Positions 1 through 25,305 of a DNA stretch of 25,305 nucleotides are shown here, one piece after another (positions within the stretch are counted from its first letter, which is position 1; every line of letters begins with the position of its first letter). Both the position numbers and the translations under genes were made by a program. The stretch is from a virus. Location: positions 1-25,305 of IMG/VR virus record IMGVR_UViG_3300030329_005169, one strand, 5' to 3'. The notes below the pieces were generated by a model. It ran no database searches. It saw only the letters and a program-made list of their open reading frames with translations, and was not told where the DNA came from.

Positions 1-3000
1 TCAGCACGATACTTCATCCAAACTAGATCCGGCTGGAAACCATATCCTGTTATGTCTCTATTGGTTGCATTACCTATAAACCTCCGTGCATTGAACAGCG
101 TTGGCTTAGTCTCAGCATCCACTGCAATGGTGAGCATCGAGTCAGTATTATCCAGCACCTCACTTCCATTTACATGGATCTGCCTTTCAGGATCACCAAA
201 ATGAAGAGTCTGGGAAGTCAATGCACCACCCGTGGTATCCGCAGATAAAGTCAGGGTTGTCGAAGAATCAATTGAAGTGATTGTGGTTCCAGCAGGGATG
301 CCAGTTCCAGTAACTGTATACCCAGGTTGCAGTCCTTCTGTATTTGTTGAACTGGAAAAAGTGACTAAGCGTTTTGAAGAACCTGTGGAATCATAAGCAG
401 CATTCCCTCTCTCTGTTCGGACCTGTGCTTTTACTGGTAGGTTTGCTCTTGTTGTACCACTAAAATTATTACTAATTGTTCCTGTTAAGGTTGCTTTGTT
501 TTTGTCTGATCCTGTCAGGTTTGTTAGAGTCAACCCGATGTTCGTATCATCAAGCTTCTGCATTCCAGTTGTGATTGAAGTGTTTGCTACATTGGAAAAC
601 TCAATGTCCTCATCAGATTGCAAGTCACCCGATGCCAGTTGACCTGTGAAGGTGATGGTTGGGATCGTTTTGTCTTTATAGGCTCCGTAGATTTTGGTGG
701 GTGGGGTAAATCGTTGCGTTGAAGCATCTTCAGACCAACCACTGTAACCACTACCCCAATCATTAGCACCTTCGACTATCCTAAAAGAATCAATGTATCC
801 GTGGAAGAAGTTATCAGTTCTTGATGAGTAATTGATGCCAATAAAACAATCGGCTCCATCACTTGCGGAATTATAAGTAAACTTTTTAAATGTAGTATCC
901 TTTTTCCTAAGATACCCATTTACAAAAATCCCAGCATAGTTTGTGTCAAATACAATCGCTAAATGTGTCCATGTATTTGCATTAACAACTCCAGATGCTG
1001 TTTCATAAGCAACATGAGAAGCACTGCTATTGTTATAGTAGTGAAACCCAACTGCCCCATCATTTTTAATATACCAATGGGATGCCACATTATCTTTGCC
1101 CATTATCGTTGACCCAAGATTATCTATACTTGACCCTGATGTGCTTAAACTAAGTGGATAAACCCAACAATCAATCGACCCCTGAGTAACTGTACTAGGC
1201 AGGTGACCACTACCAATTGAGAGATAATCCCCTGTCCCATCAAAATAAGCACCAGCACTCCCAGTCTTCTTCTTGCTTGCAGGCCAAGTCATCGCAGGGG
1301 CGATTCCTCCGTGGCCTTGGCTGTGGTAGGCTCCTGTTGGGGTTATGATGTGGGCTGTATTATTAGCAGGGGAATCAGAAGAACTATCGGTAAACTTTGC
1401 ACCATCGCCATGTACTAAAAGTTTAGTATGTGATGCTGGAAATGACCTATTCACATTCGCTATGTCTGAACCAACAGTGTAAGAGCCTCCTGTTGTGGTT
1501 AGTGGGCCAGATGGGGGAGAATTATTGAACGCACCAGTATATACTTTTGTACCAACCACAATTCTCAAATCTTCAATCATCCCATCAAAGTAATTGGTAG
1601 GTGTTCCAGAATAACCACCTACTGCACTGGTTCCAGATGAAGACCTAGCTCCAATTAATACTGGTCGATTTGTCGCATCGTAGTTCCAGTCTGTTGTACT
1701 GGCATCGGTTGTTTGACCAACTTGAACTCCATCTTTGTACATTGTTAGTGTGTCTGCCGTGTAATCGTGAACAACAGCATAATGATGCCAAGTTCCTTCA
1801 GTTGGAACTGAGCTTGCCCCACCACTTATATTGACAGTTTCATTATCATCTCCAAATAGCATGTGGTAATTACTGCCATTAAGATGTAAAGCCCATCCGC
1901 CCCAATCATCTTTGTCTGCTAAAGAAGCAATTCGATCCCAACCACCCAGATTTTCAACACGAATCCAGCATTCAAGTGTCCAATCGTAGGTTTTTCCTAA
2001 ATCAAAATCGGTAGATGGGGTCGTAAAGGCATAATCATCAGACCCATCAAAATCCCAAGCAGATCCACCCCACGCTGTTCTGGCATTAGTTGTGCTTTGT
2101 ACTGGCCCGCTTGTAGTTAAAATGCGATTAAAGTCTGAAGCATCATCTGACTGATCACTATGAATCAGCAATTTGGTATTCGTAATTGCTGTAAATCTTG
2201 AAGTTGGGGCATCGAAATTTGAAGTATAAACGGCACTACCATTAACAATGCGGATTTCGTCTAAGTATCCACCCCAATCTAACTCATCATTATGTCCACA
2301 TCCTATTTTTAAATCTTTAGCTGCATTAGCGGTTGTTGCAATATGCGTTGAGGCTGTCGATGATGCTTCAAGTGTTCCGTCAATAAACAATCGTGCAGTA
2401 GTTCCATCCCTTGTCCATGCGAAATGATACCAAGAGCCAATATTTAACACTGTTGTACTAGCTAAATCATAATTTGTTGAAGAAGTGCGAACTCTAACAG
2501 TTACTGTTCCATCACTATTCCTATAAATAGTCCATCCATCAACATCCGCTGTACTTATCCCACCATGCGACATTACTATTTCAGTGCCACCATGAGAATC
2601 ACATTGATACCAAAATTCTACACAAGAAGATGTTCCCAATTCCCAATCATCATGATCTGCTATAACTAATTTATCATCACTCCCATCAAAGAACATCGCA
2701 CTCTTCCCATCCCCAAAAGGTGACGCTTTGATGACTGCGTTTCCGCTTGTTGTTGTTTTGTGACCAATGCCACCAGTGTTGCTACTGTCTTCTATGTCCG
2801 TTCCACCACCTCTGTCGAAATTCAGCAGTAATTTTGTGTTACTATCCTGCTGTCCACCAGCAACCCTACCCCCATAAGTACCAAGGTGAGTGCTTTCGGA
2901 ATAACTAGCACCTGAACCACCAGTAAAGGTTACTGTAGGATCTGCGGATACTACAAATGCCGTGGAAAATCTTGCGGTAATCCCAGAATTTTCTGCTTCT

Positions 3001-5123
3001 ACATAAACTGTATCGCCAGCACTCAAAGAACCATGACCAAAGGTTGCTTCAAGTCTACCTGCTGTTTGATTGGTAATCGTTGCATCTGACCCAACTTTAG
3101 ATCCTCCTGAACTTGCGTTCCAAAGGGATACTGTGGTGTCACTTAGAAAATCTGCTCCAAAGAGCGTTAAGGTTGAGTCCTGATCATGATTCAATGCACC
3201 TGAAACACTCGTGATCGTTGGTGCAGTTGACGTTACTTGCCATGCGGTTTCGCCTGTGCTGGTGTCCGACATCGCAAGAACATAGTTGTCCTGGGATGCT
3301 CTTACGTTAGGAAGCTTGATCGTGTTGGAACCTGAATTGATGATGACGTTGTTCGAAGCAGTCTTGCCCTTGACTGTTAAATCCGAATCGGAAGAGGATG
3401 GCTCAACTGTATCTCCTCCCACTGATGCCACCATCGTTTCCCAGTTCGAACCATTGTAAACATAAAGCTTCGTATCACTCGTGTTGTAATAAAAATCCCC
3501 GGCAACTAAAGACGCTCCACTGCCATTCGGATCCCTGGTCGTTGGATTCGAACTGCTGTTTCCTAAAAATCGGGCTACGGACGTTGCTGCAGTATTTTTA
3601 TGACCCTCTGCCGTGTCCGCATGATCCGATGCCACCTCCGAATAATGCTTCGCAGATCGGTCGGTTGATGCTGCACCTGGGACCGCCGTGTTCTTGTCTG
3701 TCTGCGACCAGCCCTTCGACGATCCGCCTGACGTATCTGCGCCTAAAGCCGTGTCCTGGGCATATACCTTCGAACTGTAATCCGTGTCTACTGCACTGCC
3801 GGTTTTTGATGCCCAGCTTTTCGAGGAGCCAGTCGAAGGTTCATTCACATCCGTCGAATTCGCGTATGACTTCGAACTGTATTCGGATCCTGAAACCTGT
3901 CCGTCCGTCTTCGATGCCCACTCCTTCGACGATCCTGATGACGGAGCATAACTCTCCGCAATCGATGTCAAAGTTGCTCCCATACCCGAGTGCGCCGTAC
4001 AATAAAAATAAACAGTTGCTGCTGCATCCGACGGAACTGCAAATGTTACTGTTGCTCCCGCTTGACCAGGTGTGCCGGATCGCGTGACTGTGTAATCGGG
4101 TGAGGTGTCTTCGGCTGTCGTGCTGAAAGCAATAATATGAGTGCTATTACTGCTGTCACTGACATCAAACGTGTAGGTCGTACCCTTGATGATGTTGTAA
4201 ATGGAGTCGGATCCACTGCTGATCGTCTTCCCATTTAAAATGAATTTTCCCCCTGAAGCCGTTACATAAATCGTGGTCGGAGTCCCTGCCGCAATAGAAT
4301 ACGCTTTGGACGAGTACTCATTCGAGTCCACACCCGTGTCGGTGTCTGTTACTGTCCCAGTTGTCTTTTTTGCCCAATCTGATGCTGTCGTCCTGTGCTG
4401 ACCCGCGTCCGCAGAATGACCAGAGGCTGTGTCGGAACTCGCTAATGCACTCTGCCTCGCCTGCTCCACTGCGACACTCGTTCCCCAAACAAATACATTC
4501 GGGGTAGAAGAGGTCGGAGGCGCGGTTACAAACGTCAGATCCGTTCCGCTGATGGTATAAGATGCCGCGTCGGAACTGCTCGACTCCGATTGAGGGGTCT
4601 TTAAACTCCCCGCAACAAATACCATTACATCCTTGTCTGAACCATACGTCGTCGATAATGTGAACGTCTGGGTGCTTCCATTCCCAGTGAACTTCTCAAC
4701 CTGAACCGCAGAAGAACTGATTGCTGCATTGGCAATCATTACAAACTTCGACTCATTCGACGCAAAAGCTGACGCAGATGTGTGGGCCGTGATGCAATAA
4801 TAAGTGGCTTGGCTGTTTTCAACTACATCACCTACCACATAGGCAGTGGACGCCGCCCAAGCCCCCTTGATGTTGAAGCCGGATCCGGATGCGCCTATCA
4901 GCGCCAAGGCATCTAAACCGAATTGCTGATTTCCTACTGACGAATTCGCCAGCTTCCCATCATCACGTTGAATTAATTTTATGTTCGTGTTAATGCCGTC
5001 CAGGTTGGTCTTGACCTGGTTCAGCTCCGCGTCTACCTGGGAGCCGGGTAACGGATCGGAGGGGTTACTGGTTGCGCGGTCAGTGAAGTTATATTGCCGC
5101 GTATAGGGGGTCGGTTGTGCCAT
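1..5123 (-). CDS. Tail fibre / receptor-binding protein with cupredoxin-like, Ig-like and three LamG-like domains (C-terminus cut off)
   Basis: A single open frame runs from the ATG at 5123 to the left edge (1707 codons, no stop). The N-terminus (about residues 5-55) has the NPSDPLPGSQVDAELN pattern of podovirus-type tail fibres. A chitin-binding-like WxxxxxYxxGDVV segment and a beta-rich GNGSTQTFTL module follow. Stalk-like repeats of the type WAxKTxGxV...YSSKxYA occur at about residues 240-500, interrupted by a cupredoxin-like domain (H329, C375, H378, M381). Then come an IPT/TIG-like Ig fold (about 630-735) and three LamG/concanavalin-like modules (about 753-978, 980-1225, 1229-1485), each opening with N/HTKLL and closing near R-I-V-x-G. 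The last visible residues, FQPDLVWMKYRA, match a phage fibre domain I recall as DUF7483. The likely role is adsorption to host surface glycans. The domain reading is from motifs; the copper site is inference. Confidence 0.9.
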   Translation of the reverse strand, partial: MAQPTPYTRQYNFTDRATSNPSDPLPGSQVDAELNQVKTNLDGINTNIKLIQRDDGKLANSSVGNQQFGLDALALIGASGSGFNIKGAWAASTAYVVGDVVENSQATYYCITAHTSASAFASNESKFVMIANAAISSSAVQVEKFTGNGSTQTFTLSTTYGSDKDVMVFVAGSLKTPQSESSSSDAASYTISGTDLTFVTAPPTSSTPNVFVWGTSVAVEQARQSALASSDTASGHSADAGQHRTTASDWAKKTTGTVTDTDTGVDSNEYSSKAYSIAAGTPTTIYVTASGGKFILNGKTISSGSDSIYNIIKGTTYTFDVSDSSNSTHIIAFSTTAEDTSPDYTVTRSGTPGQAGATVTFAVPSDAAATVYFYCTAHSGMGATLTSIAESYAPSSGSSKEWASKTDGQVSGSEYSSKSYANSTDVNEPSTGSSKSWASKTGSAVDTDYSSKVYAQDTALGADTSGGSSKGWSQTDKNTAVPGAASTDRSAKHYSEVASDHADTAEGHKNTAATSVARFLGNSSSNPTTRDPNGSGASLVAGDFYYNTSDTKLYVYNGSNWETMVASVGGDTVEPSSSDSDLTVKGKTASNNVIINSGSNTIKLPNVRASQDNYVLAMSDTSTGETAWQVTSTAPTITSVSGALNHDQDSTLTLFGADFLSDTTVSLWNASSGGSKVGSDATITNQTAGRLEATFGHGSLSAGDTVYVEAENSGITARFSTAFVVSADPTVTFTGGSGASYSESTHLGTYGGRVAGGQQDSNTKLLLNFDRGGGTDIEDSSNTGGIGHKTTTSGNAVIKASPFGDGKSAMFFDGSDDKLVIADHDDWELGTSSCVEFWYQCDSHGGTEIVMSHGGISTADVDGWTIYRNSDGTVTVRVRTSSTNYDLASTTVLNIGSWYHFAWTRDGTTARLFIDGTLEASSTASTHIATTANAAKDLKIGCGHNDELDWGGYLDEIRIVNGSAVYTSNFDAPTSRFTAITNTKLLIHSDQSDDASDFNRILTTSGPVQSTTNARTAWGGSAWDFDGSDDYAFTTPSTDFDLGKTYDWTLECWIRVENLGGWDRIASLADKDDWGGWALHLNGSNYHMLFGDDNETVNISGGASSVPTEGTWHHYAVVHDYTADTLTMYKDGVQVGQTTDASTTDWNYDATNRPVLIGARSSSGTSAVGGYSGTPTNYFDGMIEDLRIVVGTKVYTGAFNNSPPSGPLTTTGGSYTVGSDIANVNRSFPASHTKLLVHGDGAKFTDSSSDSPANNTAHIITPTGAYHSQGHGGIAPAMTWPASKKKTGSAGAYFDGTGDYLSIGSGHLPSTVTQGSIDCWVYPLSLSTSGSSIDNLGSTIMGKDNVASHWYIKNDGAVGFHYYNNSSASHVAYETASGVVNANTWTHLAIVFDTNYAGIFVNGYLRKKDTTFKKFTYNSASDGADCFIGINYSSRTDNFFHGYIDSFRIVEGANDWGSGYSGWSEDASTQRFTPPTKIYGAYKDKTIPTITFTGQLASGDLQSDEDIEFSNVANTSITTGMQKLDDTNIGLTLTNLTGSDKNKATLTGTISNNFSGTTRANLPVKAQVRTERGNAAYDSTGSSKRLVTFSSSTNTEGLQPGYTVTGTGIPAGTTITSIDSSTTLTLSADTTGGALTSQTLHFGDPERQIHVNGSEVLDNTDSMLTIAVDAETKPTLFNARRFIGNATNRDITGYGFQPDLVWMKYRA

Positions 5124-5153
5124 AGCCTGGATCAGTTTTTAGGTTCTAATTCC

Positions 5154-5203: not shown

Positions 5204-5256
5204 TTTGTTAAATCGTTTGTTGGAACAAAAATTTTTGTTGACAAATGTGTAACAAA
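5204..5256. promoter_or_regulatory. TTTGTT/AACAAA palindrome cluster upstream of the tail fibre promoter
   Basis: TTTGTTGGAACAAA (5216-5229) has 6-bp inverted arms around a 2-bp spacer. A second, wider pair (TTTGTT at 5234-5239 and AACAAA at 5251-5256) and a lone TTTGTT at 5204 lie alongside. The same arm sequence recurs at 11040-11070 before the phosphate-transporter gene, which suggests a shared DNA-binding protein. The site lies upstream of the -35 box, a position usual for an activator. The regulator is unknown. Confidence 0.5.
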
Positions 5257-5270
5257 AAAGACCAAAAGTC

Positions 5271-8767: not shown

Positions 8768-8789
8768 CGGCCCCGCTCACCTGGGGCCG
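8768..8789. terminator. Hairpin between convergent operons
   Basis: CGGCCCC (8768-8774) pairs with GGGGCCG (8783-8789) around an 8-nt loop. The stem straddles the stop codon of the leftward DUF6378-like gene and sits 33 bp after the stop of the rightward operon. It has no T-run, so it may act as a pause or RNA-stabilising element and not as a classical intrinsic terminator. Confidence 0.45.
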
Positions 8790-9205
8790 TCCCTCCGCAT
8801 TTTCATCACTTCAAAACCGATAGCCGAGTAACCGCATATATCAGCCCAGGAATCATCTTTTTCCCGGTCATGGGCCAGTCTACCCACTTTCAGCAAAATC
8901 CCCAGTACAGCAACATCATGGGGCTCCAATTCGGTCCCTTTTCTTTCACCCAGGTAAGCCTTCACCAGGTCGCAGGTCCGCGAGAGGTTATCCATTGGAT
9001 CGCCATAGTCCTTATTGCGATCCTGGGAGATGAGTTTCCCGACTTTCTCGAGCAGCTGGAGGCGGGGCTCCAAATCATCTTCCGGAGGCGGCACAACTTC
9101 GAGAGGGACGGACTGCTCCAATTCGTTATATCTCATTTGGGGATCATATTGCGGATCGTCGAAACCCGGCGGCAGGTTGTTACTGCAAACTTCGTAGTTA
9201 GACAT
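8777..9205 (-). CDS. DUF6378-like phage protein
   Basis: A 142-residue protein when started at ATG 9205, one base after the upstream TGA (TGATATG); an in-frame ATG at 9235 would add ten residues. The conserved half has QDRNKDYGDPMDN (residues 61-73), EPHDVAVLGILLKVGRL (about 94-110) and DDSWADICGYSAIGFE (about 117-132). These are the motifs of DUF6378, a widespread phage protein of unknown function whose helical fold has been compared with MazG/HisE-like all-alpha nucleotide hydrolases. The first 45 residues are an acidic, proline-rich variable extension. It is the last gene of the leftward early operon, where nucleotide-metabolism accessories are common; enzymatic activity is inference. Confidence 0.8.
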   Translation of the reverse strand: MSNYEVCSNNLPPGFDDPQYDPQMRYNELEQSVPLEVVPPPEDDLEPRLQLLEKVGKLISQDRNKDYGDPMDNLSRTCDLVKAYLGERKGTELEPHDVAVLGILLKVGRLAHDREKDDSWADICGYSAIGFEVMKMRRDGPR

Positions 9206-9206
9206 A

Positions 9207-9788
9207 TCATATCTCGAATTCAGGTTGGTTATCATTCGGATCGGGTGATCGGATATCGTTGATCACCGAGCCTGGGAACTGATCTTTAAACTGCATGACC
9301 TTATCGGATCCTTTTTGCTCCAAATACCATTGGATAACGTGGCACAGCTCGTCGAGGGTCCAGGTACGATCCACGGCATTCTCCGGGACCTGCTTGATGT
9401 CTTTTTGTTCAGCAACGAAGGCATACTTCTCTTGGTTAGGACCTTGGTGATACCAGATGACCGGGTTTTGTGCAGACTGGGGTTCGTATCCCAGGTCGAT
9501 GGCTTTCTGGTTCATGAGCTTATAACCTTTAATGAGGTTATCGACTTTCTGGCAGACGAGGGTGTAATTCTTTTGGTGTACTGCATCCCCGAGGTTCTGC
9601 TGGGCAAGGTAGAACTTTTCTTCGGTTTCGGGTTTCATGAGGGTCGGCAATCGGCCAGGCCCCCATTTCTTTTCCATGATCCTGGCGATGACATCGAGGG
9701 ATCGGATCTTCATGGTGATCTCTTCGTTGAGAGAGTTTTCGAGGGACCAGGGTTTGTAAGGTTTCTTCTCAGTATTTTTCATAATCAT
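9207..9788 (-). CDS. Conserved phage protein of unknown function (193 aa)
   Basis: A soluble, mostly helical protein. Its middle, SLDVIARIMEKKWGPGRLPT followed by LMKPETEEKFYLAQQNLGDA, has the pattern of proteins carried by alphaproteobacterial phages, where it has no assigned function. A second block, WTLDELCHVIQWYLEQKGSD, lies toward the C-terminus. Starts ATG 9788 and ATG 9782 are both possible; neither has a strong ribosome-binding site, and the frame overlaps the stop of the upstream gene by about 20 nt. It lies in the operon between the HTH_17 protein and the DUF6378-like gene. Confidence 0.7.
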   Translation of the reverse strand: MIMKNTEKKPYKPWSLENSLNEEITMKIRSLDVIARIMEKKWGPGRLPTLMKPETEEKFYLAQQNLGDAVHQKNYTLVCQKVDNLIKGYKLMNQKAIDLGYEPQSAQNPVIWYHQGPNQEKYAFVAEQKDIKQVPENAVDRTWTLDELCHVIQWYLEQKGSDKVMQFKDQFPGSVINDIRSPDPNDNQPEFEI

Positions 9789-10596: not shown

Positions 10597-11025
10597 TTAG
10601 AATTTTTGTATGAATCTTGCGATTGGGTTAATAAAAGGAAGCAGTGAGGCTGCCATGAGAAGGTTTGCTCCAGTATGAAAAATTGCTATCTGTTTTGTGG
10701 GTCCGTAATAGAGGCCCTCGCTTAACATGAGCCCTGCAATATGAATGGTTAGGGTCGTCCCCAGGTTACAGCCAAGGATTGCGGCAACTGCTGATGGAAG
10801 TGGGAGAGTCCCAGCAAAGACTAGCGAGATAACGGCTGTTGAACTAAGTGAGCTGGACTGCCAAAGCATGGTGCAGATAAGCCCTCCCAGGAATGCCAAA
10901 TAGGGGTTATCGATGTAATTTTGGAATGAGCCTAATCTTAATTCTTTCATGCCTCCGGCGAATAGCTTCAGCCCGACATAAAACAGGATGAGGCCCAGGA
11001 CTATGCTGATTAATGGATATTTCAT
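10597..11025 (-). CDS. Half-size Na+/phosphate cotransporter (Na_Pi_cotrans domain)
   Basis: A 142-residue membrane protein with one copy of the NptA/SLC34-type repeat. It opens with a hydrophobic helix (YPLISIVLGLILFYVGLKLF). The substrate-site motif Q56-S-S-S59 follows in MLWQSSSLSSTAVISLVFAG, then GCNLGTTLTIH (85-95) and FHTGANLL (116-123), the usual conserved blocks. Full transporters have two inverted repeats, each with QSSS, so this protein would have to dimerise or act as a partner subunit. Start ATG 11025 is preferred; a TTG at 11055 would add ten residues but falls within the palindromic operator. Its probable role is phosphate supply or altered Na+/Pi transport during infection, an auxiliary metabolic function (inference). 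Confidence 0.8.
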   Translation of the reverse strand: MKYPLISIVLGLILFYVGLKLFAGGMKELRLGSFQNYIDNPYLAFLGGLICTMLWQSSSLSSTAVISLVFAGTLPLPSAVAAILGCNLGTTLTIHIAGLMLSEGLYYGPTKQIAIFHTGANLLMAASLLPFINPIARFIQKF

Positions 11026-11039
11026 GGTTTTTGTTACTC

Positions 11040-11070
11040 GTTTGTTAACAAACAAATTTGTTCAAACAAA
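11040..11070. promoter_or_regulatory. Two operator-like palindromes before the phosphate-transporter gene
   Basis: GTTTGTTAACAAAC (11040-11053) is a perfect 14-bp palindrome. TTTGTTCAAACAAA (11057-11070) has the same 6-bp arms around a 2-bp spacer. They lie 15-45 bp upstream of ATG 11025. The TTTGTT-NN-AACAAA form recurs at 5216-5229 before the tail fibre. No confident -35/-10 pair is visible between them and the gene. Confidence 0.55.
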
Positions 11071-11085
11071 TGATTCAGCAAATAG

Positions 11086-11222
11086 GCACCAGGTTAAACA
11101 GCGTATGGCAGCATCCGGCCATCTTGCTTTCCAGGTGAGAACATCGATGCGCTTTGTATGGGTCGGGAAATCGCTTGACCGCCCATAAGGAGAGGCACCG
11201 CCCGGTTGGCTTAACCTGGTGC
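11086..11222 (-). ncRNA. Structured untranslated element closed by a perfect 12-bp stem
   Basis: GCACCAGGTTAA (11086-11097) and TTAACCTGGTGC (11211-11222) are perfect inverted copies enclosing 113 bp. Inside, TATGGG (11157-11162) pairs with CCCATA (11182-11187), with a bulged GGTC/GACC continuation. ATGGC (11105-11109) pairs with GCCAT (11118-11122), and further short helices are possible. The element starts 7 bp after the stop of the 11229 gene and ends about 60 nt before the cotransporter start, so on the minus strand it would be an intercistronic leader. I do not recognise a known riboswitch core. It could be a cis-regulatory RNA, a processed phage sRNA or a small inverted-repeat insertion. 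Confidence 0.5.
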
Positions 11223-19594: not shown

Positions 19595-22500
19595 TTAATA
19601 ATTAGTGAACTTGCCGGACTTGTTCTGGACCCTGCGCTTCTTCGCCTGGCGGCCCTTCCTGGGTGTGTATGTCTCACCAGTCAAAAACCATAGCAGCGAG
19701 TTTGCTATAAAATGCTTAACATCCGGTGTTGAAACAGTAGCCATGATTCCGGCAGCTGTAGGACCTTGAGCCATCCCCAGGAAAGGCGCAAAGTTAGGAT
19801 TGGATCCGACATACCAGGCGGTCATTGGAACGATGAATGCTTCAATGAACCCGATCCACGCCTGATATTCTGCAGCCTGTGTATTTGCCGAATTTGTATC
19901 TTCATTTAACCATTTAAGCATTTTCTCGCCACCCCTGGCAAACATGGTCGGCCCTGCACCAATAAACAGATTGCCCAGGTCAACTTGGTATTTCAGAGAT
20001 CGCCATGCCTGGAAAAGCGGATCAAAGGCTCCAGTGATACCTGATCGGTAAATCCCCATTTCCAATAAATATTTCCCCAGCTCACCTTTCTCTTTCTTTT
20101 CCTTCCAACGCTCTTCATTGGTAAGCCGTTCCCGGAAAGCGTTTACAATGGTATGACCCATGTAAACGGAGAACATCGCTGCAGATAACCTGGCCGCCAT
20201 CAGATTCCCGGAAGTGAGTCCGCGCTTGCTGTATTCTCGCTTCGTCTTTTTATAACCGGCAACCAATACATTCTTGCCGAAGGCATAACTGAACGATGTG
20301 ATCCCATAAACCAACTGACCAACTGGATGCTCGGCCCATCGAGGGCGGTCTTGTGCATCCGGATCCTGGATCGACCAATTGGTGAAACGTCCAACCGATA
20401 TGGACATCAGCCGACCCATTTCATGCAGCTGTCCGTCACTTTCTAAGAGTGCATCGATGTCTGGAAGCTGAACATTGAACTGCGTCATGTATTCGGCATA
20501 CGCCTTCATGTCGTTATCGGTGATTCCGAAATCCAGCAACGTATCCCGCGCATAACCAGGTCCAGGGTTATCCAGGTATTCCTGACTCATTTCTTTTAGG
20601 AACTGGATCCCGACTCGCATCACTGCTCGGCGGCTGGCATTGGTGTATCCGGTCAGCAAAGTCCGCCTAAAATATATCTGCATCCGTCTGGCCAGTGCAG
20701 GGTCATCGGCAAACGATCCACCCAGGCGATTCGAAATGATGTCACCAATTTCAGGATCATCAACAACTCCCAGGATGTTAGCGAGTTGCCTTCGGACCTT
20801 GACGCGCTCCTGCATATTTTTAGTTCCTAGCTTCGAAAAGACCTCTTCAATGGTTAGAGCCATTGCTTCCATCCCCTTGAGAACGGATTCCGATTGAACC
20901 CCTGCAGTCAGCGGTTCCGCAATACTCGAGATCGCAGCTCGGGAAAGCAGACTCATGGTTCCCATAGCATGGATCTTTTGCAGCGCCTTCCGCATCCCAT
21001 CATCCTGGAAGTGGCTTTGGGTGCCGGTCGAATGCTGGATTGTTAATCGAAGCTGTCTGATGTCTGTCTCATCCAGGACGCCGGAAAGTTTTTCTTGAAA
21101 GAGGTAGTCCAGGTAATTTCTAGGCTGCTTCGTAACCGGATCCCTTTTCTGCTTTCTTGGAACCAGGTGAGTCCCGAATCGTCGATTGTATTCTGCTTTC
21201 CGGACTGCACTCGTAATGTAATTGGAGATTGCTTCCAGGCCGTCCATATAGAATTCACGCATATAGGTATCGGCTTCTCTTGGCAGCACCCTGGATTTGG
21301 TAAACCGGCCCATCGGGGAATGAGCATTCGGATCCTCGCCTGCAGTAATCTCGATTCGATGCAGCCAATCCTGGGCTCCGAATTCCGCCCACAAATCTGC
21401 AACTTCGTAGTAAGCATCCTCCAGGGCTTCCGGATTCATCATCACTGCTTCGTTTATGTCTTTTCTGGATTTTTCTAATATTTCATTAAGGTCTTTCTCT
21501 GAGATGGCGTCCTGCTCGAACTGCTTCAATGCCTTCTTCATGGCATTTTGTGAAGAAGTAATGGTCCTGTAAATATCCCTTAAAACCGAAACTGGGGAAT
21601 CTGGATCCTCGGCCAGCTCATTATACTGCTGCTTCATGGCCTCCTTGCCGACACTCAGGATCTGATCGACACTGTCCGGAATAGCATTGCCGTTTTCATC
21701 CAATTCCGGTTCTACAAACTCTCCATGATCATTGGGCCAGAGGACTTCATAATATAAAGGTTTTGCGCCTTTCTGAGTGGACCCTGGAGGGCCATAAAGA
21801 AAATTCTGTTTATCACCGAAAACCTTGATGGTATCCGTCACTCGAGGGAGATAACCATTCTCTGGCAAATAATTTATATCAACTCGGGTTTCAGGTCCTT
21901 TTACATATCGGTGAATCTGGTTTAATAAAATCCTAAGATCAGCAGCTGCATCGACGAGCTTCTTGTCAATCTCGCCACGATCCAATTTAGCCTGGGTTTC
22001 AGGATCCGAAACCATGATCAGCTCAAGAGTCTTTTCCTGCTCTGGTGTGATCAGATCAAGCTTATGCTTTTTTACTTTATCAATATAACTCTTGGCGAAA
22101 ATACGATGCCGGGCTTTGACTGCTTCCGGGAATACTCCGTCTTTATGAGTCTCAAAGGATGCACCAGGTTCCGTAAATATCGCACTCTGGATGTAGTTGA
22201 TTGCTTCAAGGGCTTCCAGACGCCTTGACCTGTCTGCAGCCGTTTCACCAGGTCGCGCTTTCTTTATTCTGTTCCGCATTCCAATGACAGTCGCAGTCTT
22301 TGATCTGAGGAACGGATAATAAAACTGATCCTGCAATGCCATTTGAGTACGCGCCCTCCAGGATTCTTCGCCGTAACGCAATGGACGCATCTTCTGTTTG
22401 TCCATGTGGTTACGAGCAGCCTGGATGTTGCGCTTCACCTCGGCATTCCAGATCGACCAGCTTTTCGGATCCCAGACACTGAGTTCCTGTACGCCGGTGA

Positions 22501-25305
22501 ACTGTGACTTGAGATCCAGAATATCGTAATCACCAGGTGCAGCTGCAGGGTCGCCTTCGAGGAAGTCCGGGTGAGTCTGGATCGAGGCAAACAGTCTCTC
22601 GAATGCTAGGATGACGTTGTTTCGTTCAGATTCCTGGGGATGAGTAAGTGGGAATCGCTTGTCGGCCCCTTCGACTTCGTCGAGGCTCATCTGGTATGCC
22701 GCGTCAGACGAGGTCAGAAATTCGGTTGTGAAGTTAGCCTGGGTGATCTTGTGGGCAAGGTACATCTCGAAGGCCCTGGCGAACATCTCCGTAGGGCGCT
22801 GCCAGTAAGGTTTCTTCGAGAACGCCTGAACATCTTCTATGTACTGGGAGCCCTTCACTTTCATGTTGGTGCTTCCCTCAATGAAACTTTTCAGTTTTCT
22901 TCTATCCTCGGTCAGGCTTTGGCTTTCGTTTTCGCCAAGCTTCTTGCCGTCCCGCAAATGGTTCATCTCTTTCCTGGCAATCGAATGCTCCAGGTTCATC
23001 ACCTTCGATGCAACTTCATCCATGTCAAAAAAGAGAGCATTCATCACCTCACCGAATGCCAGCTGCAGCTCCCTGGTATTCGGATCATCTGCATAATCGA
23101 CATCATCCATCCAGGCAGAGTCGTCCTTTTTGAGGGTGCGGATCCGCGCAGACATACCCCGATCCCAGTCGGTTCCTAATTTGGAAAGGATGTGATAATC
23201 AAGTGCATGGCCCCATTCATGGCCGAAGGATAATGAACGACCCAGGCCCTTGATCGGGGATGGAGGCATGATGATGAAAGGTGCAGCAATCTCCGGAAGA
23301 TCAGATTTCGTGGTGACGGCGTCGCCTCCCTTCTCATTATAAAAGGCAGCGTAATATCCGCCCCAGTCCTTACCTGGGAGTGCTAATCCTAAATCACCAT
23401 TGAGACTGATTGCTGAATTGGGAAGCTGTAGAACATTGGCCATAACCTGCAGCTGACGATAGGCGTCCAGCAGGTTATCTAAATCATCATCGATCTTTAT
23501 GTTAGTCGGTGATGTTGCAATGTAGGGTATTTGAAACTTTTCCTGAATCAGTTCCTTCAGGACGTTTCGTTTGAAGATTGGGGTTTTGTTTTCAATGTCC
23601 TGCCATCGTTGCCCTCTTGGTGCTGCATAGTCCGTGAAGGCTTGGCGGAAGATGGAGATTCTCGGGTTGGCATGTTCTTTGTTTCCGATTTCTCCGGGTC
23701 GGGTTCCTGGCGGCGGTTTACTTTCACCCCCAGGCTCAGTATCTCGTCTAGAAACTTCAGGTTCGCCCCTGGTGCTGGTGTCGGCATCTAACTCTGGTCC
23801 GCTATCTCGTTTAGCTTTTGTGCGGCTTTTCTTGCGTCCGGTAGGTCGTGCTTGTTCGCTGTCCGCATCAAGGCTTTCGCTACGAGCTTCATCGATTCCC
23901 GGGAGGCTTTTTTGCTTTCTGGCGTTTCTTCTTTCTTTTCTGGCATCTTCTCTCTCTCTTGCTTTACGTTGTGCGATATCGATTACTGTACCGGCTTCGA
24001 CAGTATTTTCAAGACCAGGTAATCCACCTGGTTCCTGACCCATGACTTCGTCCACCAGGAACTGCACCATATCCCGGATGTATTCCTTGGATTTCGGTCT
24101 GGTTTTCTCTTCATTATAAAATGCAGAAATGAAGGCATCCCGGACAGGATCGGCGTCCTCCTGGAAGAGAGAGCCCTGGTTAAAATATTCTTTGACCGGA
24201 TTCGGTATCGTTTTATCGTTTCTTAGATCAGAGATTTTATTGACCGCGTCCACCAGCTTCTGCGGGATCGCCTTCATCTCTTCAGTAATATTGTCCGCAA
24301 CCTTGAGCTTCGCAAATGCAGGCGCTGCGTCCCTCAATCCTTCTGATAAGGCTTTGACGTTGTCGGTTCCAGTCGATTCGAGCATCCGCTCCAGGGCCGT
24401 AGGATCATCATATGCCTTGGCAAGGATGGCATTCTGGATACGCTTCTCGCCTTCCAGGGTGAGTGCGCCCTTGTTATAAAACTGGCCCTGTTCTGATTTC
24501 GGAACAACACGCCGATCAAAGGCGCTGATAAACATGGCGTTATCCGTATTCGTCAGCGATCCGCCTTTGTATAAATCCAGAGTCTCGAGATTCAGGGCGT
24601 CTGCATCACGCTTGGCCTGCTCCGTGGCACTCAGGGCGCTGACGGCAGCTTCATTCGAAGCCGTGGCAAATTCTTTCAGCAGTTCCGGGGTGACAGGATC
24701 CCCAATCTTATTTTCACCAGTTAGTTCTCTGACCAGGATCGGCTTCTTAAAGTCTTTTGCTCTAGGCGCCCTTTGCAGAATGTAATCGAGATACTGCTGC
24801 TTCTGTTCAGCAAATGCCGGGTCCGTGAATACCAGGTCCAGGGTCAATGCCCTGCCGTTGCCGGATATGATGGTGCCGTCGGGCGTAATGATGGGGGAGC
24901 CTGTATCGGAAGTCCTGGAATTTTCTGTGATTTGAGGAACATCAAGATTCTGCGCTCGATCCCGGACCCCGCGATCCGATTCCAGCCTGCTGCGATCCCG
25001 GATCTGCAGGTCGCCTGTTGCCTGCTTCAGGTCATCCAGCTCAACAACCGCCTGCATGGATTCCAGCTCGATGTCGCTGTTAGGCGGTTTTATCTTTGTT
25101 CTGTCTTCTGAATCTAAAGGACGGATTGTGCTTTCAGGGCCTTGCTTCCTTTTCAGCGAAGAAATTGAATTGCTGAATTCAGGCGCCATCTTAGACCAGA
25201 AACCTGGTTCTTCTTTTGGTGCCTCCGGAGGCTTCGGCCCTTCGATAGGCGTGTCTGGTTGCTGAAGGGGAGGTGCTGGCTTTAAAAACTTTTTAGGTAC
25301 ATTAA
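19595..25305 (-). CDS. Giant virion-associated polyvalent protein: ddrB-like ParB, LPD1/zincin, ejection-type C-terminus (N-terminus cut off)
   Basis: At least 1902 codons are visible. The frame stays open through the right edge, and the ATG at 25189 is internal: the 38 residues before it include PGFWSKM, like the start of other such proteins. Counting from that Met, residues 90-390 contain a ddrB-like ParB domain (GSPIITPDGTIISGNGRALT). A charged, disordered linker (about 410-510) follows. The LPD1 domain spans about 510-840, with zincin site HEWGHALDY (H657, E658, H661) and RPTEMFARAFEMYL later. The rest is long helical sequence, ending in hydrophobic segments (WIGFIEAFIVPMTAWYVG..., HFIANSLLWFL). 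Such proteins are packaged and ejected with DNA to protect it or breach the envelope. The protease activity is inferred from the motif. Confidence 0.88.
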   Translation of the reverse strand, partial: NVPKKFLKPAPPLQQPDTPIEGPKPPEAPKEEPGFWSKMAPEFSNSISSLKRKQGPESTIRPLDSEDRTKIKPPNSDIELESMQAVVELDDLKQATGDLQIRDRSRLESDRGVRDRAQNLDVPQITENSRTSDTGSPIITPDGTIISGNGRALTLDLVFTDPAFAEQKQQYLDYILQRAPRAKDFKKPILVRELTGENKIGDPVTPELLKEFATASNEAAVSALSATEQAKRDADALNLETLDLYKGGSLTNTDNAMFISAFDRRVVPKSEQGQFYNKGALTLEGEKRIQNAILAKAYDDPTALERMLESTGTDNVKALSEGLRDAAPAFAKLKVADNITEEMKAIPQKLVDAVNKISDLRNDKTIPNPVKEYFNQGSLFQEDADPVRDAFISAFYNEEKTRPKSKEYIRDMVQFLVDEVMGQEPGGLPGLENTVEAGTVIDIAQRKAREREDARKERRNARKQKSLPGIDEARSESLDADSEQARPTGRKKSRTKAKRDSGPELDADTSTRGEPEVSRRDTEPGGESKPPPGTRPGEIGNKEHANPRISIFRQAFTDYAAPRGQRWQDIENKTPIFKRNVLKELIQEKFQIPYIATSPTNIKIDDDLDNLLDAYRQLQVMANVLQLPNSAISLNGDLGLALPGKDWGGYYAAFYNEKGGDAVTTKSDLPEIAAPFIIMPPSPIKGLGRSLSFGHEWGHALDYHILSKLGTDWDRGMSARIRTLKKDDSAWMDDVDYADDPNTRELQLAFGEVMNALFFDMDEVASKVMNLEHSIARKEMNHLRDGKKLGENESQSLTEDRRKLKSFIEGSTNMKVKGSQYIEDVQAFSKKPYWQRPTEMFARAFEMYLAHKITQANFTTEFLTSSDAAYQMSLDEVEGADKRFPLTHPQESERNNVILAFERLFASIQTHPDFLEGDPAAAPGDYDILDLKSQFTGVQELSVWDPKSWSIWNAEVKRNIQAARNHMDKQKMRPLRYGEESWRARTQMALQDQFYYPFLRSKTATVIGMRNRIKKARPGETAADRSRRLEALEAINYIQSAIFTEPGASFETHKDGVFPEAVKARHRIFAKSYIDKVKKHKLDLITPEQEKTLELIMVSDPETQAKLDRGEIDKKLVDAAADLRILLNQIHRYVKGPETRVDINYLPENGYLPRVTDTIKVFGDKQNFLYGPPGSTQKGAKPLYYEVLWPNDHGEFVEPELDENGNAIPDSVDQILSVGKEAMKQQYNELAEDPDSPVSVLRDIYRTITSSQNAMKKALKQFEQDAISEKDLNEILEKSRKDINEAVMMNPEALEDAYYEVADLWAEFGAQDWLHRIEITAGEDPNAHSPMGRFTKSRVLPREADTYMREFYMDGLEAISNYITSAVRKAEYNRRFGTHLVPRKQKRDPVTKQPRNYLDYLFQEKLSGVLDETDIRQLRLTIQHSTGTQSHFQDDGMRKALQKIHAMGTMSLLSRAAISSIAEPLTAGVQSESVLKGMEAMALTIEEVFSKLGTKNMQERVKVRRQLANILGVVDDPEIGDIISNRLGGSFADDPALARRMQIYFRRTLLTGYTNASRRAVMRVGIQFLKEMSQEYLDNPGPGYARDTLLDFGITDNDMKAYAEYMTQFNVQLPDIDALLESDGQLHEMGRLMSISVGRFTNWSIQDPDAQDRPRWAEHPVGQLVYGITSFSYAFGKNVLVAGYKKTKREYSKRGLTSGNLMAARLSAAMFSVYMGHTIVNAFRERLTNEERWKEKKEKGELGKYLLEMGIYRSGITGAFDPLFQAWRSLKYQVDLGNLFIGAGPTMFARGGEKMLKWLNEDTNSANTQAAEYQAWIGFIEAFIVPMTAWYVGSNPNFAPFLGMAQGPTAAGIMATVSTPDVKHFIANSLLWFLTGETYTPRKGRQAKKRRVQNKSGKFTNY

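Follow-up and report, generated by a model that had tools for sequence, protein, structure and literature searches.

Inverted-repeat transporters are thought to have descended from half-size proteins that paired head-to-tail. In the NaPi-II phosphate transporters, the two repeats form inverted units, each of which carries one QSSS motif (PMC6325988). In phages, the corresponding family, PF02690, has been described from the genomes of eight marine phages of the HMO-2011-type subgroup I, where it was read as serving phosphate uptake (PMC9038755). A transporter assembled from two antiparallel copies of one small protein has its precedent in the SMR transporters (PMC6805155).

The locus analyzed here lies on a viral contig of 25,305 bases, which is referred to as the window over its whole length. 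The window encodes a protein that contains one PF02690 repeat instead of two, and this protein is referred to as the half transporter.

The half-transporter protein and its gene setting

The features of the window and of the related contigs are listed in Table 1. PF02690 (Na_Pi_cotrans) matches the window protein with 60.7 bits (E 2e-16; curated cut-off 29.1 bits) in one stretch covering residues 14-103, and the motifs QSSS, GCNLGTT and FHTGANLL each occur once. The sequence-only reading had named a single-repeat Na/Pi cotransporter before any profile search, and this clear match bears it out. The canonical two-repeat architecture is absent: the chain contains one repeat, and no second repeat was found in any frame. 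The matches to the two-repeat models NF037997, TIGR00704 and TIGR01013 span only about one third of each model. The window protein (P0001) scores 49.9 against NF037997, just under the cut-off of 50, and 54.5 against TIGR00704, below the cut-off of 210.1; two relatives (P0002 and L030) exceed the NF037997 cut-off. With phmmer, the window protein aligns separately to each of the two repeats of zebrafish SLC34A2, and the family profile matches the zebrafish SLC34 repeats in two stretches (E 2.7e-21), PDB 9z60 being matched by the sequence profile. The protein thus corresponds to one repeat unit.

Table 1. Positions of the features discussed (window numbering unless a contig is named; a dot marks features without strand).
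Feature	Position	Strand	Details
Half-transporter gene (single-repeat Na/Pi cotransporter)	10597-11025	minus	142 aa + stop; ATG at 11025, stop 10597-10599
Possible in-frame basic N-terminal extension	11026-11055	minus	MFVNKRVTKT, if TTG at 11055 is the start; candidate start only
Perfect palindrome, operator-like	11040-11053	.	GTTTGTTAACAAAC
7+2+7 palindrome, operator-like	11056-11071	.	ATTTGTTCAAACAAAT
137-nt element	11086-11222	minus	12-bp perfect inverted terminal arms GCACCAGGTTAA/TTAACCTGGTGC; starts 6 nt past upstream stop
Second palindrome-module copy	5204-5264	minus	upstream of giant tail-fibre-like ORF; from local alignment
Giant tail-fibre-like ORF	3-5138	minus	partial, runs past contig end; three Laminin_G_3 stretches and carbohydrate-binding module CBM_5_12
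DUF6378 protein	8777-9235	minus	76.4 bits
Polyvalent protein	19595-25189	minus	1864 aa; domains ddrB-ParB and LPD1
Class II tRNA synthetase (D, K, N) core-domain gene	L014:2027-3064	minus	PHROG 29758, unknown function
Bmp/PnrA-like ABC substrate-binding protein	L016:848-1963	plus	second possible uptake gene

The window phage encodes a small terminase subunit, a Prim-Pol/AAA protein, a PD-(D/E)XK nuclease, a RuvC-like resolvase, a repressor-like regulator and a tyrosine integrase. The combination of terminase, replication, repressor and integrase genes indicates that the virus is probably a temperate tailed phage; a search among viral contigs for relatives by means of its Prim-Pol protein gave 0 matches. 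An alternative genetic code at the left end of the window is unneeded, as the giant frame there is open with the standard code. The half-transporter gene sits just past the minus-strand replication block (RuvC, PD-(D/E)XK nuclease, Prim-Pol/AAA and HTH genes). Its earlier placement within a phage replication operon was therefore roughly right in location, except that the gene follows the block and has its own control region. The codon score of the gene, 0.094, is below that of most genes of the phage (gene median 0.236). With its own control region and this low codon score, the gene resembles a moron, as extra genes added to phages are called, in line with the auxiliary and separately controlled gene proposed at the outset.

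Control region and the 137-nt element

Both predicted palindromes are present and fall 15-46 nt 5' of the ATG of the half-transporter gene. The module that they form aligns with a second copy upstream of the giant tail-fibre-like ORF with a score of 27, where shuffled sequences gave a mean of 12.2 and a maximum of 21 (0/500 as good). Counts of 12- to 14-base consensus sequences allowing mismatches showed no excess over chance, so the shared module rests on the alignment of the module as a whole. The module suggests that the half-transporter gene and the tail-fibre gene are under one regulator, in which case the half would possibly be made late or in the lysogen. The region upstream of the tail-fibre gene contains no hairpin like the 137-nt element (fold z −0.04), which is thus not part of the shared module.

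The minus (coding) strand of the 137-nt element folds with −56.1 kcal/mol (z −3.23; 1/200 shuffles as good), and the opposite strand gives a z of −2.6. An ORF of 56 amino acids, whose ATG overlaps the upstream stop, crosses the element; its score of −0.018 bits per codon is close to the off-frame median of −0.027, so the element looks untranslated. The structured, untranslated leader of the sequence-only reading is accordingly retained. The element is probably an untranslated RNA or a DNA hairpin, and our guess is that its role lies in insulating or processing the transcript before the promoter of the half-transporter gene.

The idea that this leader forms a unit with the gene is not supported. 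The element is absent upstream of the relatives of the half-transporter gene, most of which lie directly behind other genes. An exact 34-nt probe and a search for the arm pattern found nothing in viral contigs, and blastn found nothing in named phages or plasmids; a single 30-nt match in the 296 sampled Bacteroidota genomes was judged to be due to chance. Since no relative of the element was found, the half-transporter gene does not travel with it. In Rfam, no family reached the gathering score, and the only match to a known RNA had an E of 5.4, which is at chance level.

Extent, conservation and origin of the viral family

In the first scans of viral contigs with narrow queries, the only match was the closest relative, L002, a viral contig whose half is 82-83% identical and which has no further DNA similarity to the window. 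Terminator-like hairpins stand both before and after the half-transporter gene of L002, together with a different AT-rich dyad pair, as expected of an independently expressed extra gene. The family required a wider alignment (A2), which gave relatives on at least 599 viral contigs, from at least 600 matched stretches. The best 80 of these at least 599 loci have near whole-query coverage at 55-63% identity (L002, 83%) and encode proteins of 138-164 amino acids by the chosen start, within stop-to-stop frames of 145-202 amino acids; a profile search of every frame of their fetched flanks found no second repeat. Exactly one PF02690 match occurs in each of 26 viral records of up to 177 kb, which indicates that there is no separate viral partner half in these records, some of which may be fragments.

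All 35 aligned members match PF02690 (E up to 0.01). In window numbering, Q56, S57-S59, T63, G85, N87, G89-T91 and T93 are invariant, including all residues of QSSS and GxNxGTT, which suggests that each half retains a complete set of the binding residues predicted for a repeat. Between the window gene and that of L002, 77 codon differences are synonymous and 25 non-synonymous, with synonymous sites saturated; three other pairs of halves show dN of 0.05-0.13 against dS of 0.81-1.68. These values point to strong purifying selection, and, judged from the sequences, the half-size gene represents a functional family of viral proteins rather than a broken remnant. PHROGs gave no convincing match for any of the 35 members (the single weak hit has an E of 0.0036), and among the records of named phages none has a half that spans 80% of the query. 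The matches in named phages (Listeria, Staphylococcus and fecal phages; unverified records) were rejected, the four phage or plasmid types inspected being two-repeat proteins.

When two family patterns were compared with 84,980 species genomes, two loci were found, both on MAG contigs. The neighbors of the first include several clusters in common with the viral contigs L032 and L035, and those of the second include one cluster in common with T4-like contexts, so both are probably viral contigs binned into MAGs. No full-length PF02690 copy was detected in these two MAGs, which are incomplete and do not necessarily represent the hosts. PF02690 matches are present in 24 of 301 Chloroflexota and 115 of 296 Bacteroidota genomes sampled, and, apart from the two MAG halves, every listed match lies in an open frame of at least 322 amino acids. 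The statement that cellular transporters have two QSSS repeats holds for 24 of 25 cellular-type proteins inspected whole, which have two repeats above 15 bits; the remaining protein shows a single scoring repeat. A tree of the repeats places the halves in one clade (support 1.0), well separated from the cellular repeats. The attachment of this clade to the second-repeat side is weak (support 0.55-0.76), so the tree allows both descent from a second repeat and an older single-repeat state.

By shared neighbors, 82 loci fall into 12 context groups. The neighbors include T4-like gp32 and gp59, a T7-like terminase, an SU10-like portal, family B DNA polymerase and ribonucleotide reductases. The half-transporter gene has been transferred among distinct phage lineages. 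None of 20 viral records checked contains PhoH, a phosphate-starvation gene that phages often carry. The tRNA synthetase core-domain gene in Table 1 is found near the half in T4-like contexts at 17 other loci as well, and the ABC substrate-binding protein at 11 other viral loci. Boxes like TATATAAT, which resemble T4 late promoters, occur directly 5' of the extended start codon in T4-like contexts (e.g., L066, L069 and L081). The sequence TATAWAW lies within 40 nt upstream of 19 of 81 halves.

Proposed mechanism, alternatives and known systems

By analogy with the NaPi-II topology, the three membrane helices and the re-entrant hairpin would leave the two ends of the half on opposite sides of the membrane. 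A basic N-terminal extension, for example MKKKDRKLYDSWKYK, is present in 51 of 81 members, where the loop-charge bias is mostly +3 to +5. In the 30 short members, including the window protein, the bias is −1 to −4 (average −2). As the bias takes both signs, the charge-based orientation does not appear to be fixed across the family, which is compatible with dual topology rather than proof of it and counts against dual topology in the extended members.

The confidence of the AlphaFold2 monomer models is low to middling, with a mean pLDDT of 63.6 for the window protein and 74.7 for the member L057, and the helix is broken at QSSS in both. Fold searches gave no match with E < 0.001 and recovered no NaPi transporter; SLC34 (PDB 9z60), which may or may not be part of the fold library, was not among the rows. 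The top row, with a Foldseek probability of 0.99 and a VIA alignment over 149 residues, was the split sorbitol (Gut) PTS membrane protein (PDB 9x2m chain F). This likeness is weak (E 0.054, Z 6.7, rmsd 10.8 Å, 10-13% identity), in the range of common helical arrangements, and serves as a lead only.

The best explanation, to which we give an even chance, is an auxiliary phage gene whose one-repeat products import phosphate as antiparallel, dual-topology homodimers. One polypeptide would supply one repeat unit, consisting of a first helix, the QSSS re-entrant hairpin and two more helices, and two copies inserted in opposite directions would form the homodimer. This would restore the two-fold inverted-repeat transporter, which in cells is built from a single chain with two repeats. 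Phosphate would be imported with sodium during infection and would enter nucleotide synthesis for phage DNA, and in this phage the gene would be driven by a promoter/operator module of its own, which the tail-fibre gene also has. The PF02690 match in the 35 members, the profile hit to the SLC34 repeats, the invariant motifs, the spread over at least 599 viral contigs, the purifying selection, the single copy per record and the loop charge of either sign argue for this explanation, as do the SMR precedent and the inverted repeats of NaPi-II. The basic N-terminus of the extended members, which should hold one orientation (N-in), argues against dual topology, and the quality of the models, the fold searches and the lack of PhoH weigh against the explanation as a whole. 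We rate as slightly short of even the broader proposition that the halves are an overlooked large viral family of one-repeat NaPi proteins, working as antiparallel homodimers and representing the single-repeat state before duplication and fusion.

The same basic extension, which suggests one orientation in its bearers, and the constant single copy with no viral partner would also suit a fixed-orientation subunit that joins the two-repeat Na/Pi transporter of the host and boosts, inhibits or locks it, perhaps to regulate the flow of phosphate or to shut out another phage whose receptor is that transporter. This is unlikely: by profile, most of the sampled genomes have no cellular transporter, no full-length copy was detected in the two half-bearing MAGs, and the binding residues are all invariant. 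That the antiparallel homodimer carries a substrate other than phosphate is quite unlikely, as QSSS and GxNxGTT match those of phosphate transporters, even though the half clade is well separated from the cellular repeats and no phosphate gene such as PhoH co-occurs. A parallel oligomer, forming a channel or a leak that passes phosphate or ions instead of a coupled symporter, would agree with the small size and with the fixed orientation predicted in many members; the invariance of the symporter motifs makes it more doubtful still, and we know of no channel precedent in the PF02690 family. A decaying or frameshifted remnant of a host-derived two-repeat gene, toward which the weak second-repeat-side placement might point and which the sequence-only reading had itself raised as a counter-reading, is rejected as extremely improbable, given that the single-repeat ORF is intact in 80/80 best loci with no second repeat following it, that purifying selection is strong and that the halves are monophyletic.

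If the homodimeric phosphate importer is correct, it is an unrecorded way for distinct phage lineages to alter the phosphate uptake of infected cells and a living example of the state that preceded duplication and fusion in inverted-repeat phosphate transporters. As the half is compact and widespread, it can be expressed and tested directly.

The viral half has the QSSS hairpin, GxNxGTT and the helix order in common with the cellular PF02690 transporters (bacterial Na/Pi symporters and SLC34/NaPi-II), with significant profile scores. The cellular members have two inverted repeats per chain, often with a PhoU-like tail, whereas the viral half has one repeat and no PhoU. EmrE, a small multidrug transporter, works as an antiparallel homodimer in place of an inverted-repeat transporter, which is the principle proposed for the half; its fold and substrates are unrelated, and its dual topology is demonstrated, whereas that of the half is proposed. 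The HMO-2011-type genes, compared by description only, are likewise phage-borne and proposed to serve phosphate uptake in infection, and the portion of their report considered here mentions neither one repeat or half size nor a spread over many phage lineages (PMC9038755). No report of a half-size PF02690 form and no description of a natural half of SLC34-related phosphate transporters was found in the literature, where coverage of subscription journals was thin and PMC9038755 was the one paper found to link PF02690 with viruses. The idea of a phage-borne PF02690 transporter is thus already on record. What appears to be new is the one-repeat form, together with its spread over phage lineages and the absence of a cellular counterpart.
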